Shown in pieces: positions 1,655 to 20,068 of a DNA stretch of 21,009 nucleotides. The translations under genes and the position numbers were made by a program. How positions within the stretch are numbered: position 1 is the stretch's first letter; each line of letters starts with the position of its first letter. The DNA lies in assembly GCA_030620115.1 (NCBI GenBank), contig JAUXFG010000061.1, forward strand, positions 1 to 21,009, read 5' to 3'. A model generated the notes under the pieces. That model did no database searches, had not been told where the DNA came from, and was given only the letters and a program-made list of their open reading frames with translations. This DNA is from Candidatus Fermentibacterota bacterium. GTDB taxonomy: Bacteria > JAFGKV01.

Positions 1655-3350
1655 ATGCGGGATGATCAGATCCATCATCACGACATGCGTGCTTCTCAAA
1701 AATCCAGATGGTGGGGCAATGATAGCGGAGGTCATGCGGGAGAAGCGTTACACCGCCTGAAGCCCATAGGGGCGGGTGCGGTGCGGTTGCAAACTCATGT
1801 TTTTCGTAGCAAACACCCTGCGTCAGTTCCCCGCCCGAAAAGAGGAGCCCAGCGGCCTGTGCCTGCGCGCGTCGCAACTCAGGCGCCCGCTGCCATGGTT
1901 CAGTATCGTAATCGGTGAGCACAATCCAGTCAGGTGACACCGCAGCAAGCGTATCTTGGGTCAGCGTGCTCACCACTATATTGAACTTCTTGCTCGAGAT
2001 GGGGGGAGATGCGAAATACGGGGCTCCCGGGAAAAAAACCGTATCTCCAGAATCCCCACGCCTCTTGAGCCACATGCCTGCTCTGTTCCGCACATCGTCT
2101 TGCGTGAGCGTACCCACGTGTTCGGCAGTGAGTACCACTTGCGAGGTCAAACACATTGCCAATCCCAGGGCAAGAAAGACTCCTTTTCTTCTCGAATTCC
2201 ATGCCCACTGGACTCCATAACCCAAGACCAAGAGATGCATGGGTATCAGCGGGAGCATGTATCTCGAGAACTTCAGCGGCGATCGCGCCAACTGGACCCA
2301 GAAAACCAAGAGAAGGAGAAGCAGGCTCCCCAAACGATGAGCCCGCCAACGGTAAAGCGCGATGGGAAGCGAGATCAGGAAAAGCACCGTGGTCCATGGG
2401 CCGATCCCCGATGGAAGGCTCTCCAATATATGGTACACGAGGGAGTGGCTCGTTCCGAGAAAAGCGTCGCCGTGCCCGGCCTGGACATGGCGCCACTGCC
2501 ACACAAGATCCTGCAGGAATGTGTGGAAATTGAACACCGCGTAGGGCGTCCCCGCCAGAAAAGACAGACCGGCGAAGAGAAGCCCTCTGGCGAGAATCTT
2601 GACCTGTCGACCTTCAACAGCCGCGTAGATCGGCAGTATCAAGACAAGGACTCCATTGAACTTCACCGACGCCGCCAGGCCAGATGTGGCGAATGCGGCA
2701 TAGAGAAGCCACCAGCGCGGCTTCTTCTGCCTCCCTACGCCTGCCAGCAGGGCTGTGGCCAGGATCCAGAATACCAATGCGATATCCGGGGTGGCGGAAT
2801 GTGCATAGAGAAGAAACAACGGCGAAAGAACCAGCATCAACCCTAGCGCCACATGAACGACGGGTTGCCTTACCACACGACCCAGGAGTGCCATGAATAA
2901 GAGCACGCATCCCAAACCAAGAAGCCACGAGACAAATCGAGCCACAAGATAGATCGACGCAAGTTGGTCTGGTCTCGTCAGGTAGAATGCCTTATCCGCC
3001 GCAAGAGTCACGAATCCCAGAAGGTGTGCCGCAGCAAGTGCGGCGCCGATCGTGTACAGATGGAATGAGCCCCAGTGAAACCACCCAGGATCGAATCGTA
3101 GGCTCCGTGGTTTCATCCTGGCCAGCGGCATGAGCGCGGAACACTCATCCACCTGATAGCTCTGCAAGGGGCCGGTGAAGAATAATCTGTCTGCGCTTCT
3201 CCCTATGACCTGCTCGGCATCTGCATCATATAATGCGGTGCGTTCCTCGCTTGGCAGCCCCCAGCGAATCCCCAGACTGGCCAACACCACATAGACCAGC
3301 GCAACCACAAGCGTGCTGAGGAAAGCAATCCTCCTATCCCGAACCCGCAC
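1653..3350 (-). CDS. GT39-like membrane glycosyltransferase (PMT_2-type)
   Basis: Integral membrane protein of 565 residues with an N-terminal transmembrane helix (about residues 9-27) and roughly ten further hydrophobic segments, matching the GT-C layout of lipid-linked-sugar glycosyltransferases. After the first helix comes a long extracytoplasmic loop with the acidic pair in SYQVDECSAL (Asp68-Glu69) and then FHWGSFHLYTIGAAL, which resembles the PDE...YGSLPLY pattern of PMT-like enzymes. A soluble C-terminal part of about 130 residues follows the last helices (WIVLTDYDTEPW is visible). The start is a GTG at 3350 with a weak AAAGGCGG upstream. It lies four bases upstream of the next glycosyltransferase, so the two form a pair. 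Family assignment is firm at the fold level; donor and acceptor are unknown. Confidence 0.85.
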   Translation of the reverse strand: MRVRDRRIAFLSTLVVALVYVVLASLGIRWGLPSEERTALYDADAEQVIGRSADRLFFTGPLQSYQVDECSALMPLARMKPRSLRFDPGWFHWGSFHLYTIGAALAAAHLLGFVTLAADKAFYLTRPDQLASIYLVARFVSWLLGLGCVLLFMALLGRVVRQPVVHVALGLMLVLSPLFLLYAHSATPDIALVFWILATALLAGVGRQKKPRWWLLYAAFATSGLAASVKFNGVLVLILPIYAAVEGRQVKILARGLLFAGLSFLAGTPYAVFNFHTFLQDLVWQWRHVQAGHGDAFLGTSHSLVYHILESLPSGIGPWTTVLFLISLPIALYRWRAHRLGSLLLLLLVFWVQLARSPLKFSRYMLPLIPMHLLVLGYGVQWAWNSRRKGVFLALGLAMCLTSQVVLTAEHVGTLTQDDVRNRAGMWLKRRGDSGDTVFFPGAPYFASPPISSKKFNIVVSTLTQDTLAAVSPDWIVLTDYDTEPWQRAPELRRAQAQAAGLLFSGGELTQGVCYEKHEFATAPHPPLWASGGVTLLPHDLRYHCPTIWIFEKHACRDDGSDHPA

Positions 3351-3458
3351 CTCTTACCGCCTTTCGAAGCGAAACCGACGAAATGGTTCTGAATGCGAGG
3401 CTTGCGACGGAAGACCCCGGCTCTGTCAGGGCGTAGCCTGGCTCCGCCGTGGCGAAGC

Positions 3459-3490
3459 CCGGAGGCGTATCCTCTGTGATACGTCGAGGA
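3459..3490 (+). repeat. Hairpin repeat family A, copy 1
   Basis: The core is CCGGAGGCGTATC, a six-base loop CTCTGT, then GATACGTCGAGGA; CGTATC and GATACG pair perfectly. A related block on the minus strand at 7687-7716 has the same frame (CCGGA.GCGTA, loop, TACGTCGAGGA) with a changed but still paired stem (CGTAGC/GCTACG). The shared flank and the conserved pairing argue for a dispersed structured repeat rather than chance. Confidence 0.6.
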
Positions 3491-3510
3491 GGCTGATGGA
3501 GCGCAACGAA

Positions 3511-3579
3511 GTCCCGCGTCGGACGCGGGATGCCATATCGGCTGTTGCAGCCGAAAGTTGGTGAGAAGTGCGGGTCAGA
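3511..3579 (+). repeat. Hairpin repeat family B, copy 1
   Basis: An eight-base-pair hairpin (TCCCGCGT, loop CGG, ACGCGGGA at 3512-3530) is followed by a small GGCTG/CAGCC hairpin (3540-3552) and a 28-base motif at 3552-3579 whose core is GGTGAGAAGTGCGGG. The same order, hairpin with TCCCGC/GCGGGA arms and then the 28-base motif, occurs on the opposite strand at 16914-16999. The two 28-base motifs match at 24 positions. I infer a dispersed, non-coding, structure-forming repeat. Confidence 0.65.
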
Positions 3580-7716: not shown

Positions 7717-7870
7717 TTACGCTCCCTCGGGGAGACCAATTCTACGGCAAATCTGTGCGCGAAGACTGCGAATCTATTCCTGCGCGAACCCTTAGGGCTC
7801 GCGCATTTCGCTTTTCTCTTCCAATTCCAGCAATCCAGCAATTCGCTCTTCTTCCAACCCTCCCTCCTTA

Positions 7871-7900
7871 GATTGCAGATTCCAGATTGTCAGATTATAG
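7871..7900. repeat. CAGATT-type repeat, left copy
   Basis: A run of degenerate units GATTGCAGATTCCAGATT and CAGATTATAG. It shares two separate 13-base words with the run at 8038-8066: GATTGCAGATTCC (7871-7883 and 8054-8066) and CAGATTCCAGATT (7876-7888 and 8038-8050). It flanks the left side of the inverted-repeat element. Confidence 0.6.
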
Positions 7901-7922
7901 GTTCTTCCCTCCTCCCCCACCC

Positions 7923-8022
7923 AGATTCTTCGGTTGCTCCGCTCCCTCAGAATGATACGTCTCTTCACGTCCAATGCCAACCGCATTTGTCATTCTGAGC
8001 GACTGCAAGAAGCGAAGAATCT
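7923..8022. mobile_element. 100-base inverted-repeat element (MITE-like)
   Basis: Two 33-base arms (7923-7955 and 7990-8022) are inverted copies matching at 26 of 33 positions, with the outer ten and inner ten bases identical (AGATTCTTCG outside, CTCAGAATGA inside). A 34-base centre joins them. The arms contain the motif CATTCTGAGCGA...GAAGAATCT, which I recognise as a very widespread intergenic repeat in many bacterial genomes; that recognition is from memory. No transposase is encoded, so it would be non-autonomous. CAGATT-type repeats lie on both sides. Confidence 0.6.
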
Positions 8023-8037
8023 CTCCCATATTCTCCC

Positions 8038-8066
8038 CAGATTCCAGATTATAGATTGCAGATTCC
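8038..8066. repeat. CAGATT-type repeat, right copy
   Basis: Degenerate units CAGATTCCAGATT, ATAGATTGCAGATTCC. It shares two 13-base words with the left run at 7871-7900, in the same orientation but different order. It ends 15 bases from the stop codon of the cyclophilin gene. Confidence 0.6.
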
Positions 8067-8081
8067 TAATTCCTGTTCTGA

Positions 8082-15601: not shown

Positions 15602-16912
15602 CTATGTGCCTACGAGACCCACGGCGCTTTCGGCCGTGGACCCTGCCAAGGCTCGAAGTCTCTCATACGATCGAGCCAGTTCGAGAAAAACCCCGATATC
15701 TCTGTCCAGAGTACCCTGCGTACCATCGAAATAAAACGTCCTGATGGGGAGGCCGTCCAGATCCCTGGTCAATGTGGGATAGATGGCCTCGGCAACTATT
15801 GCGTTCATACACGTGAACGGCGAAATGTCAACAACCCCTGAAACTCCGTGGTGGTGAAGGTAGACAACACGCGACACGGAAAGAACCATCTCACCAAGGG
15901 CGCCGTCACTGGGGAGGTATGGCTCCCCCAGAGTCAGAAGATCCTTCATATGGGTCGGTTCCGGTCGATCTCGCAGGTCCACAGAGAATATCTCCTCGAG
16001 CTTTGCCGCATCACCTTCCTGCACCCAGTGCCGAACTCGTGATCTGAGTCTCTCCGGGCTCACCAACGATTTTTTTCTTCTGAGTCGCAGCTCGTCTTCA
16101 CGATTCGAATAGTGGATCCACTCCCGAAGCCCGGTGAGCCAGGCTTCGGCGCCGTGTCCCTCGAGCAGGCGAATGAATGCCATGTTGGTGAATTCGTTGT
16201 TCCGGCAAAAGATCTCACCCACTACGCCGATCAATGGCCGTGTCTCGTCACGTTTTTCCACGCTGCGCAATCGATCTCGTCCCCATCGCAGTGCATCTGC
16301 AACAGCGGAAAGCTCCCCGGTCCGCGCGGGGTTCTCCAACACGGCGCACACGCGTGACAGGGCCTCCTCAAAACACTCATCACTCTTGCCTCTCTGCATC
16401 TCGTACGGTCTCGTCCGAAGCAGTTGGGCTGTCAAAAGATCCGCGGACACGATTCCCCACCATGTAGATCTGTTGAGGCCTTTCGATCCATCCCCCATGC
16501 CTTCGTAGGCATCGGAGCTGGTCGGCGAGATGATCAGCGCATCGCCGAACCCATTACGATCCAGGACGACTCTGATATAGTGCGCATACTGCCCGAATCG
16601 ACATGGGCCTGACGATGTGGGCATGAGGAAGGCAACATCTGATGGAGCAAACCCATCGTCAACGAGCACCCGGAGAAAATCGCCCAGCGTGATGATCTCG
16701 GGATAACATTCCTCACCCGAGCTGTGCGCTTGCCCCAACTCCAACGTACGGCTATCTGAAGCCGGCGTAATTTTCGCTCGAATACCATGACCGCGGAATG
16801 CCGCGGCTACGGCCCGCGAATTGGCCGTGGGCATGCGGGGAATGAATACGGTCCGATCAGACAGAGGCTTCGGATGCATACCCAGAATTCCGGCTTGAGA
16901 ATAGGACGACAT
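15602..16912 (-). CDS. C-terminal part of acyl-CoA dehydratase activase-related protein
   Basis: A 437-residue protein matching the C-terminal portion of the large (about 1400-residue) CoA-enzyme-activase/DUF2229 proteins. Landmarks are TVFIPRMP, GEECYPEIITLGDFL, PTSSGPCRFGQY, GEIFCRNNEFTN and the cysteine in DISPFTCMN; the conserved cysteines in ECYP, GPCRF and FTC could bind iron-sulfur clusters, as in the related 2-hydroxyacyl-CoA dehydratase and benzoyl-CoA reductase subunits. The gene directly upstream (17033-20068) supplies the missing N-terminal two thirds, and both are in the same reading frame. The frame is open back to a TTG at 17005, but that part is the family B repeat. ATG 16912 (or ATG 16879) is a more protein-like start, although no good ribosome-binding site is seen. 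No dehydratase partner lies in the window. Confidence 0.8.
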   Translation of the reverse strand: MSSYSQAGILGMHPKPLSDRTVFIPRMPTANSRAVAAAFRGHGIRAKITPASDSRTLELGQAHSSGEECYPEIITLGDFLRVLVDDGFAPSDVAFLMPTSSGPCRFGQYAHYIRVVLDRNGFGDALIISPTSSDAYEGMGDGSKGLNRSTWWGIVSADLLTAQLLRTRPYEMQRGKSDECFEEALSRVCAVLENPARTGELSAVADALRWGRDRLRSVEKRDETRPLIGVVGEIFCRNNEFTNMAFIRLLEGHGAEAWLTGLREWIHYSNREDELRLRRKKSLVSPERLRSRVRHWVQEGDAAKLEEIFSVDLRDRPEPTHMKDLLTLGEPYLPSDGALGEMVLSVSRVVYLHHHGVSGVVDISPFTCMNAIVAEAIYPTLTRDLDGLPIRTFYFDGTQGTLDRDIGVFLELARSYERLRALAGSTAESAVGLVGT

Positions 16913-16913
16913 A

Positions 16914-16999
16914 TCTAGCCCGCACTTCTCACCGGCTTTCGTTGCGAAGCGGTGTAGTTGGCTGTGGCTGTCCCGCACCCAAAGCGTTGGGTGCGGGAC
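16914..16999 (-). repeat. Hairpin repeat family B, copy 2
   Basis: On the minus strand a 13-base-pair perfect hairpin (16970-16982 with 16987-16999, loop CGCT; arm GTCCCGCACCCAA) is followed by 28 bases and then the 28-base motif at 16914-16941 containing GGTGAGAAGTGCGGG. The motif matches copy 1 (3552-3579) at 24 of 28 positions, and the hairpin occupies the same relative place. It lies exactly between the two activase genes and ends one base before ATG 16912. No T run follows the stem, so it is not a standard terminator. Confidence 0.7.
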
Positions 17000-17032
17000 G
17001 ACCAAGCATCAGAATGATAAAAAATCATCCGG

Positions 17033-20000
17033 CTAGGCAGCCTCGGGCTTCCGTCTTGTCGATGGCACTTCCGCGCTCGTTCTTTTCAACATGCCCTTGG
17101 ACTCGAGAAAAGCCTCGCAGCGGGTCATGATCCCCGCATCATTGGCGTGTCCATCAAACTGCAGCGTAAGGAAGGGCTTTCCCCCCGCCTCACGAAGGTA
17201 GTGCTTGATGAACGAATCGGGGCCGCATTTGAAATTCGTCACATGGATCACGTGCAAGAGATCGTCATTCCTGGTGAGCTTGGCTGCGGCAATAATCTTC
17301 CGACCATAGTTCCAAAACATATTGGGGTTCACGTCGGAAATATCAATGGAATCCACATCCAAGAAGTCCATAGGAATCACATCTATCCCATAGTAGTCCC
17401 TAAGCTTCGGGGCAACCGAAAGGCTTACGCGCCTATCGTAGATACTGTACGGTCGCCCCAGAAGAACGATCGCGCGCTGGTCTTGGGCTCTGATATTACC
17501 CAGGGCCTCTTTCCCGGCCTGATGGAGTCTCGCAACGAAGTCCGCCTGTACACGCTGCGCATGCTCCAATGCCCGATCAACCTCCTTTCGTGAGACACCA
17601 AAGCGGGCGAGGTCTTTCGATAGGGCTCGTCTCACATGGGATCGCCCTCGCCGAAACCAGAGTATTGGCGAAATCAGCTTATTGGAGAGCCCTGCAAGGG
17701 CCGAGGAAGCGCGCAATACATAAGGAAGGGTCTGACCCCATACGCACGTGAAGCTCTCCACATTCTGCTGTGGGGTCTTCCTATCGATGATCACGGGGAC
17801 AAAGACCGCGTCGACCCCCTGCTCCAGGAGCCAGGATGCATGCCCATGAGCCACGGTGATGGGGAAACACGGCTCCGCAACGGTGCTTTCCAAGCCTCGT
17901 TCCACAAGCCGCTTGTTCGTGGGCGGGCTAACCATGATTGACCAGCCCAGACGCTCGAAGAAGGCATACCAGAACGGCAGAAGCTCTATGGCGTACATGG
18001 CATTGGGAATACCAACAGTGGGGCCATGTTGCATCAACGGCCTCTGCGGAAGAAGCTCGAGATAGCGGCTGAACAGATCGTCGGTGACAGGGATATTGGA
18101 GGTCTTTTGCCGCTTGCGATACCGCTCCGAGCACTGGTCGCCCCAGTAGCTTCGCTCTCCTTCTACGGTGAATTCCTGGATATTGCAGTAGTTCTCGCAG
18201 CCGGGACACGTGAATTCCCGCATGGAATAGGGAACACGCTCAAGACACAGACCCCGAAAACGAGTCTTCCTTTCGCCGCTCCTTGCCCACTCACGGGCAA
18301 GGAGCGCAGCCCCAATCGCGCCCATGACACCATTATGTGGCGGTACGACTATCTTCTGGCCAAGCACCGACGAAAAAGCTGCCGCCACTGCATCATTGTA
18401 TGCAGTGCCCCCCTGAAAAAAAATGACACCATCGATCGATCGTCCCCTCACGACCCTGTTGATGTAGTTCATCACCACAGAGTATGCCAGGCCGGCCACG
18501 AGATCGGGAATCAGCGCACCCTTTCTCAGGTGTGCGAACACATCACGTTCCATGAACACCGTACATCGTTCGCCGAGACGCACAGGATTTCGAGAAGCCA
18601 AGGCCATGGACGCAAACTCATCCTTTATGGAGATCCCCAGTTCCACAGCCCGCTCTTCGAGGAAGGAGCCGGTGCCCGCAGCGCATGCCTCATTCATGGT
18701 AAAATCCACCACCACGCCGTCCTCGATGCGGATATACTTCGAGTCTTGGCCCCCAATCTCGAGGATCGTGTTGACCTTGGAGTCGAGATATCGTTCGGCG
18801 ATGAAGCTCGCACCACGCTGGTGCGCAGTGATCTCATCGTTTACCGTATCGGCGCCCACCAATTGACCGATGAGCTCACGGCCCGAACCCGTCGTACCCA
18901 CCGCTCCCACGTGGACCCTGTCCCCCAATTCCCTGGCCAATTTCTCCAGACCGTCACTCACCACCTCTATGGGACGTGCCCGGGTGCGCACGTAGAGCTC
19001 CCATAAGACCGATCCATCACCGTCGATCACGGCAAGGTTCGTGCTCACACTTCCCACGTCGATGCCCAAATACACGGGGCGTTGCTCGCCACGTTTGGGG
19101 AGCTCTACCTCTGGCACGCGATCTCTCAGGAGAATGACATCCTGCATGTCGAGAGGATCCAGCGTAGTGAACTCATCCGGTGCAAGGGTTACAGAACCGG
19201 GCAAACGGGAAGTCGGGGCGGCGGCTTCCGCGGCGGCGGCGCCTGCGGCTCCTATCCACGCATGATACTGCGGCACATGAAACTGGTGAGGCTCCAGATC
19301 GAACGCGCTACGCAGGGACTCGGCTACGGCACTGTTCGCGGCCACACCGCCCACGAAGAGAACAGGCGGCACCACATGCTTATTACGGATCACTGCCCCT
19401 TTGAAGTTTTTCGCCACCGCCTCACAGAGCCCTGCCAATACCTCGTGGGGATCATATCCCTTCTGTTGCGCGTGTATCATGTCCGACTTCGCGAACACCG
19501 AACAACGCCCGGCGATCTTGGGGATGCGTTCCGCGCCCTTGACCAGGTCACCAATCTTCTCGACATCAAATCCCAATCGTCCAGCCTGTTGGTCGATGAA
19601 TGCACCCGTGCCGGCGGCACAGTCACCATTGGTCTCATAATCAACTACCGACAGTGTTCCATCAGGGAGAATGGCCTCAAGCCGGAGGTACTTGGACGTC
19701 TCACCACCCATCTCGAAGACGGTTCTGGTATCGAGATGAAGCAGAGAGATACCCTTGGCTAACGCAATGAACTCGTTCTCATGCGCCACATCAAGGGACT
19801 TGGCCACAGGCTCCGCAGCAGCTCCTGTCAAACGAACTCCCAAGAGGCTCGATCCAACCGCCTTCACCACCGCATCAATCATCCTTCCGGCAGCCTCTGC
19901 CGGTCGCCCTTTTGTTCTGATGTAGGGGCTGAACCATGCCGTGCACCAGGCCGTCTCAACACCTTGGGAAAAGCCTGCAGGCAGCCGTCCGTGTGATGTT

Positions 20001-20068
20001 TTGGTTGACAACAGCACGGCCTTGAGGGCCACAGACCCAATGTCCACTCCAAGATAGAACTCACCCAT
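17033..20068 (-). CDS. Acyl-CoA dehydratase activase-related protein: two ATPase domains plus DUF2229-like region
   Basis: A 1011-residue cytoplasmic protein. Domain 1 (about 5-285) and domain 2 (about 333-595) are both BcrAD/BadFG-type ASKHA ATPases: phosphate-binding GVDIGS (7-12) and GIDVGS (335-340), EMGGETSKY (119-127) and EIGGQDSKY (437-445). Each keeps the two cysteines that bind a bridging [4Fe-4S] cluster in HgdC-type activases: Cys150 in DCAAGTG and Cys189 in RCSVF; Cys462 in ACAAGTG and Cys502 in RCTVF. A third region (about 610-1011) is DUF2229-like, with CPGCENYC and a later Cys646, and GRPYSIYD and CGPDSFIKHYLREAGGKP near the end. HgdC-type activases use ATP to drive low-potential electrons into radical dehydratases; the role of these large fused versions is not established. 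ATG 20068 has GGAGG ten bases upstream. The usual C-terminal third is encoded by the next gene. Confidence 0.92.
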   Translation of the reverse strand: MGEFYLGVDIGSVALKAVLLSTKTSHGRLPAGFSQGVETAWCTAWFSPYIRTKGRPAEAAGRMIDAVVKAVGSSLLGVRLTGAAAEPVAKSLDVAHENEFIALAKGISLLHLDTRTVFEMGGETSKYLRLEAILPDGTLSVVDYETNGDCAAGTGAFIDQQAGRLGFDVEKIGDLVKGAERIPKIAGRCSVFAKSDMIHAQQKGYDPHEVLAGLCEAVAKNFKGAVIRNKHVVPPVLFVGGVAANSAVAESLRSAFDLEPHQFHVPQYHAWIGAAGAAAAEAAAPTSRLPGSVTLAPDEFTTLDPLDMQDVILLRDRVPEVELPKRGEQRPVYLGIDVGSVSTNLAVIDGDGSVLWELYVRTRARPIEVVSDGLEKLARELGDRVHVGAVGTTGSGRELIGQLVGADTVNDEITAHQRGASFIAERYLDSKVNTILEIGGQDSKYIRIEDGVVVDFTMNEACAAGTGSFLEERAVELGISIKDEFASMALASRNPVRLGERCTVFMERDVFAHLRKGALIPDLVAGLAYSVVMNYINRVVRGRSIDGVIFFQGGTAYNDAVAAAFSSVLGQKIVVPPHNGVMGAIGAALLAREWARSGERKTRFRGLCLERVPYSMREFTCPGCENYCNIQEFTVEGERSYWGDQCSERYRKRQKTSNIPVTDDLFSRYLELLPQRPLMQHGPTVGIPNAMYAIELLPFWYAFFERLGWSIMVSPPTNKRLVERGLESTVAEPCFPITVAHGHASWLLEQGVDAVFVPVIIDRKTPQQNVESFTCVWGQTLPYVLRASSALAGLSNKLISPILWFRRGRSHVRRALSKDLARFGVSRKEVDRALEHAQRVQADFVARLHQAGKEALGNIRAQDQRAIVLLGRPYSIYDRRVSLSVAPKLRDYYGIDVIPMDFLDVDSIDISDVNPNMFWNYGRKIIAAAKLTRNDDLLHVIHVTNFKCGPDSFIKHYLREAGGKPFLTLQFDGHANDAGIMTRCEAFLESKGMLKRTSAEVPSTRRKPEAA

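Follow-up and report, generated by a model that had tools for sequence, protein, structure and literature searches.

Two adjacent genes in the window (the whole 21,009-nucleotide stretch of DNA that was analysed) are best read, with a probability of roughly 93%, as an ancient A/B pair for an ATP-dependent iron-sulfur reductase, beside which a MITE-like element inserted at the stop of gene A in this genome, with two polypeptides being made. Several observations support this reading: the genes are split in relatives, which lack the repeat; the repeat family shows inverted ends and duplicated targets; and the two halves are homologous, with a dehydratase-type fold predicted for protein B. An earlier note had offered three readings of the locus, namely gene fission by repeat insertion, an ancestral two-gene state and recoding by stop-codon readthrough. 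Only the ancestral two-gene state survives, because relatives are split without the repeat.

Organization of the gene pair

Genes A and B occupy one shared frame on the minus strand (Table 1). Reading of the ORFs confirms the earlier description of a 1011-residue activase/DUF2229 frame with a downstream frame in register, and also that the sole in-frame stops between them are TAG (17035-17033) and TGA (17011-17009). The length first given for protein A stands, whereas the 437 residues given for protein B become 436 when counted from ATG 16912. The gene B frame ends at 15602 and is open from TTG 17005 (467 aa), with its first ATG at 16912; an alternative start, ATG 16879, aligns with the start used by relatives. 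Gene A ends in ...EAA* at the same stop position as in relatives.

Table 1. Features of the gene A-gene B junction and its surroundings (positions in the window)
Feature	Position	Strand	Remarks
Gene A	17033..20068	minus	1011 aa; two BadF/BadG/BcrA/BcrD ATPase (activase) domains and DUF2229 half
Gene B	15602..16912	minus	436 aa from ATG 16912; double-cubane-protein/dehydratase-fold subunit (predicted), three invariant cysteines (C69, C104, C368)
Second in-frame stop TGA	17009..17011	minus	within inserted stretch
Inserted stretch	16915..17032	minus	118 nt (1 mod 3), made up of the element and a single 4-bp target duplication
MITE-like element proper	16919..17032	minus	shared family unit is 16915-17006; 17007-17032 not found in other copies
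Perfect 13-bp hairpin, GTCCCGCACCCAA-CGCT-TTGGGTGCGGGAC	16970..16999		inside element
Terminal repeat GGTGAGAAGTGCGGG	16919..16933	minus	right end of element
CTAG, proposed left target-site duplication	17033..17036	minus	holds TAG stop of gene A
CTAG, right target-site duplication	16915..16918	minus	2 nt before ATG 16912

Split and fused forms in other bacteria

A six-frame search with protein B covered 98 genomes, including that of the window (G000), which holds this copy alone. The best matches lie in the same-family genomes G001 and G002 (58%) and in G034 (47%) and G047 (42%), and in all four A and B are separate genes. At 37% or below, most matches consist of a single long frame of ~1400 codons. 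A full-length relative close by had been predicted for a recent split; the search found no unsplit copy among close relatives, and fused forms fall outside the clade that contains the window.

The junctions of these four relatives take several forms. In G001 and G002 the two genes overlap at ATGA (...GAGGCGGCATGAGC...) in different frames and without a repeat, and in G034 the overlap is 37 nt. In G047 the genes are in frame, with a single TAG between them and ATG directly after it. The inserted 118-nt stretch is absent from all four junctions, so that the proposed search for the repeat at the same point in close relatives gives a negative answer. The TPR-protein gene that comes next after B is syntenic in G001 (50% identity).

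Loci from named genomes number 80, of which 8 could not be assessed; 68 of the other 72 are split and 4 are fused. The fraction is no census, as the loci are those that best matched a query which is itself split. A frame offset of 2, as for an overlap, is present at 56 of 73 split loci, tallied by hand; the 73 take in the copies of G000, G001, G002, G034 and G047, and two of these five copies are also counted with the named loci. Gene A has no conserved stop codon across split loci: TAG, TGA and TAA are all present.

In a tree of 109 sequences with SH-aLRT support, the window groups with L042, L043 and L088 (Candidatus Eisenbacteria) at support 100. This group sits inside a clade of 80 sequences (SH-aLRT 99) whose members are all split save three with long open frames that are unclassified in the tree, and these three are split by junction reading. 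The clade spans Acidobacteriota, Planctomycetota, Actinomycetota, Calditrichota, Krumholzibacteriota, KSB1 and others. Judged from these sequence comparisons, the two-gene state is old and common to many bacterial phyla.

B-like proteins on an ORF of their own also occur outside the main split clade, in G013 (L055), G022 (L068) and G012 (L069). These lone ORFs suggest that the halves have been joined or separated more than once.

The earlier statement that the two proteins together correspond to one long polypeptide holds for distant homologues. Fused proteins of ~1400 aa exist at L163 (Nitrospirota) and at L164, L165 and L167 (Deltaproteobacteria/Thermodesulfobacteriota). They have the same domain order as A plus B over the full length at 37-42% identity but, unlike the window's pair, are single polypeptides. 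When A and B are aligned to them, as had been proposed, A ends at residue 979-1012 and B begins at 980-1012; the two meet end to end and nothing is lost between. C236 of protein B is kept in nearly all split proteins (32/38 sequences overall in alignment A2) and is absent from the four fused proteins, which have V.

An expanded MITE-like family

The repeat reported in the gap between the genes is indeed a dispersed hairpin repeat, with 74 BLAST matches in this draft genome of 296 contigs, a number that places the family far beyond chance. Rfam yielded no match for it. The terminal sequence GGTGAGAARTSCGGG occurs 525 times (at most one mismatch) in the 4.1-Mb genome and 0 times for a reversed-pattern control, while the same ends number 5 in G001 and 3 in G002, approximately background. 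Expansion of the family is thus confined to G000 among the genomes searched.

Sixty-eight elements with paired inverted ends measure 79-370 nt (mode 177), and their inner modules are mosaic across the family. Identical 4-bp flanks border 15 of the 68, and of 5000 shuffles 3 reach this count. The flanks conform to YTAR; a smaller set of 29 pairs gives the same result. Like MITEs, members of the family are short, carry inverted terminal repeats, reach high copy number, have a 4-bp YTAR target-site duplication and show no coding capacity. The repeat is a MITE-like non-autonomous transposon family that is young and unrelated to the gene split.

For IS5, a YTAR target duplication has been published (PMC10359306); IS711 also has a YTAR target, but it is TA that is duplicated (PMC2266754). 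Bacterial MITEs of the IS5 group with YTAR duplication and the family studied here are alike in small size, inverted ends, 4-bp YTAR duplications and very many copies. They differ in that the terminal sequence CCCG(C/G)A(C/T)TTCTCACC was not assigned to a known IS and no autonomous partner was found. The stretches of DNA examined around eight PF01609 matches and one weak PF13701 match lack the family ends, and long inverted-end pairs on contigs C1, C17, C27 and C78 include no transposase among the listed ORFs. In the distant genome G037 (L172, L173, L175), the ends of a small family are almost identical to these (CGTGAGAAATGCGGG) and form inverted pairs ~176-255 nt apart beside CTAA/TTAG-like sites, which is a clue to a shared transposase type.

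The right terminal repeat of the copy between A and B is perfect. No left terminal repeat is recognisable, and the 26 nt at 17007-17032 are unlike any other copy. Because the left end has no terminal repeat, its border is set by the CTAG match alone and would lie at CTAG 17036-17033; CTAG has 15 occurrences in the 21-kb window.

Other repeats are present in the window. A second copy of the MITE-like family, at 3343-3574, is 231 nt long with no clear duplication, and short AT-rich repeats (TAGATTGCAGATTCCAGATT) occupy 7869-8071 as three copies between two genes.

Of 217 element edges, 20 coincide with the stop codon of a long frame. The share of edges at stops is above that of all NTAR sites (15% versus 6%, p 1.4e-4). 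A preference of the element for stop codons was dropped as a candidate, as there is no excess over nearby intergenic YTAR sites (17/115 versus 14/90, p 0.64).

Proposed history of the junction

Ancestral A and B genes would have stood nose to tail in this lineage, as the ATGA overlap of the closest relatives suggests. In this genome only, a MITE-like element with a YTAR target would then have inserted into the CTAG at the gene A stop. The duplicated CTAG would have kept the stop of gene A, and the insert would have put gene B ~118 nt away. Before insertion the site would read ...GAGGCTGC-CTAG-ATATGTCG...; removing the element and one CTAG leaves the stop TAG, two bases and ATG, a frame offset of 2 as in relatives. 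An insert of 118 nt (1 mod 3) would turn offset 2 into offset 0, and the common frame of A and B would therefore be accidental, a 1-in-3 coincidence. Two polypeptides would be made from A and B.

Alternative explanations

The repeat might instead have inserted recently into a continuous gene of 1400 codons and broken it. Its position exactly at the junction and the fused homologues on which A and B meet end to end are what such a fission would leave, but those homologues are 37-42% identical and lie outside the window's clade. In most close relatives A and B are separate genes with no repeat between them; this is true of the same-family genomes and of the broad clade that contains the window, and repeat-free split relatives share the syntenic neighbour gene. 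Recent fission is rejected as highly improbable because the split is common to phyla while the repeat, among the genomes searched, is expanded only in this one. Less probable still is that ribosomes read through TAG and TGA to make one long protein. The frame is open apart from these two stops, and G047 with its single TAG between in-frame genes would suit such recoding. Against it, gene B is in another frame at most split loci (56/73), those of the closest relatives included, where readthrough could not join A and B. The stop codon also varies among relatives, two different stops within 9 codons would have to be read, and the linker codons would be transposon sequence. Both of these readings can be ruled out with high confidence.

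An ancient pair with an inserted element leaves room for the hairpin repeat now to regulate gene B, by attenuation, by stabilising RNA or by supplying a new ribosome-binding region once start-stop coupling was lost. A very stable hairpin (RNA folding z = -5.3) does lie between A and B, the genes no longer overlap as they do in G001 and G002, and a GGTGAG stretch is located ~15 nt upstream of ATG 16912. However, the hairpin and its tail are a standard module of many family copies at unrelated loci and thus need not be adapted to gene B, and there is no T-run behind the hairpin, which is hence not a canonical intrinsic terminator. Regulation of this kind seems doubtful, and the hairpin is a candidate element that may affect expression of B.

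A predicted two-subunit iron-sulfur reductase

Gene A matches PF01869 (235.7 bits over two stretches) and PF09989 (182.2 bits), both above the gathering score. Its activase domain matches solved activators, the DCCP reductase 7yyl_E among them, and the window locus is the sole activase locus of the genome. Protein B has no match to any Pfam or NCBIfam model. PF06050 (HGD-D) has no match on B or anywhere in the genome, which makes B a distant relative and not a member of that Pfam family. An AlphaFold2 model of B (pLDDT 85) gives ten Foldseek matches at E <= 0.001 (E 6e-7 to 3e-4), with TM-scores of 0.42-0.47 that indicate a distant relation. All ten belong to the DCCP/2-hydroxyacyl-CoA dehydratase superfamily, represented by double-cubane cluster protein, 2-hydroxyisocaproyl-CoA dehydratase and 3-methylbenzoyl-CoA reductase, and B is predicted to have their shared fold. 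Profile comparison shows that protein B and the DUF2229 half of A are homologous (E 4e-6). C69, C104 and C368 of B are invariant in 38 of 38 sequences and are putative ligands, able to hold an iron-sulfur cluster.

A and B most likely form an ATP-driven iron-sulfur reductase. They are likely to work as a heteromer in which the ATPase part of A would drive electrons into putative clusters of the DUF2229 half and of B. No literature on DUF2229 with an activase was found, and nothing relevant on COG3581.

The DCCP:DCCP-R structures (PDB 7yyl, 7yzm, 6eno) are the best structural matches of B, and both systems combine an ATPase activase partner with a dehydratase-fold protein that has invariant cysteines, a likeness known for A/B from sequence and predicted fold. 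B is only ~14% identical to DCCP in sequence. A/B also differs in architecture: protein A joins two copies of the activase domain to one dehydratase-like half (DUF2229), and the other half is a protein of its own. (R)-2-Hydroxyisocaproyl-CoA dehydratase with its activator (3o3m, 4eht) and 3-methylbenzoyl-CoA reductase MbdONPQ (9gai) resemble A/B in having two homologous dehydratase-fold subunits and a BadF-family ATPase drive. Unlike these enzymes, A/B lacks a PF06050 match, and no CoA-substrate genes were noted near the locus.

Implications

The case is an ordinary finding, in which a transposon came recently to lie between the two genes of an ancient pair, and it removes an apparent instance of recoding or recent gene fission. 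A mobile element can mimic either process, as a YTAR-duplicating insertion on a stop damages neither gene but changes the frame of one relative to the other. The locus also draws attention to an abundant enzyme that has hardly been described, probably an iron-sulfur enzyme of two subunits driven by ATP; no Pfam or NCBIfam model recognises its second subunit in this genome.

The expansion of the MITE-like family is of greater interest than the gene pair. It is a tentative idea, on balance unlikely, that a lineage-specific burst (~525 ends in 4.1 Mb) separated an overlapped pair, a hairpin spacer replacing the fixed coupling of the subunits, and that it may have done so at other gene pairs in this genome.
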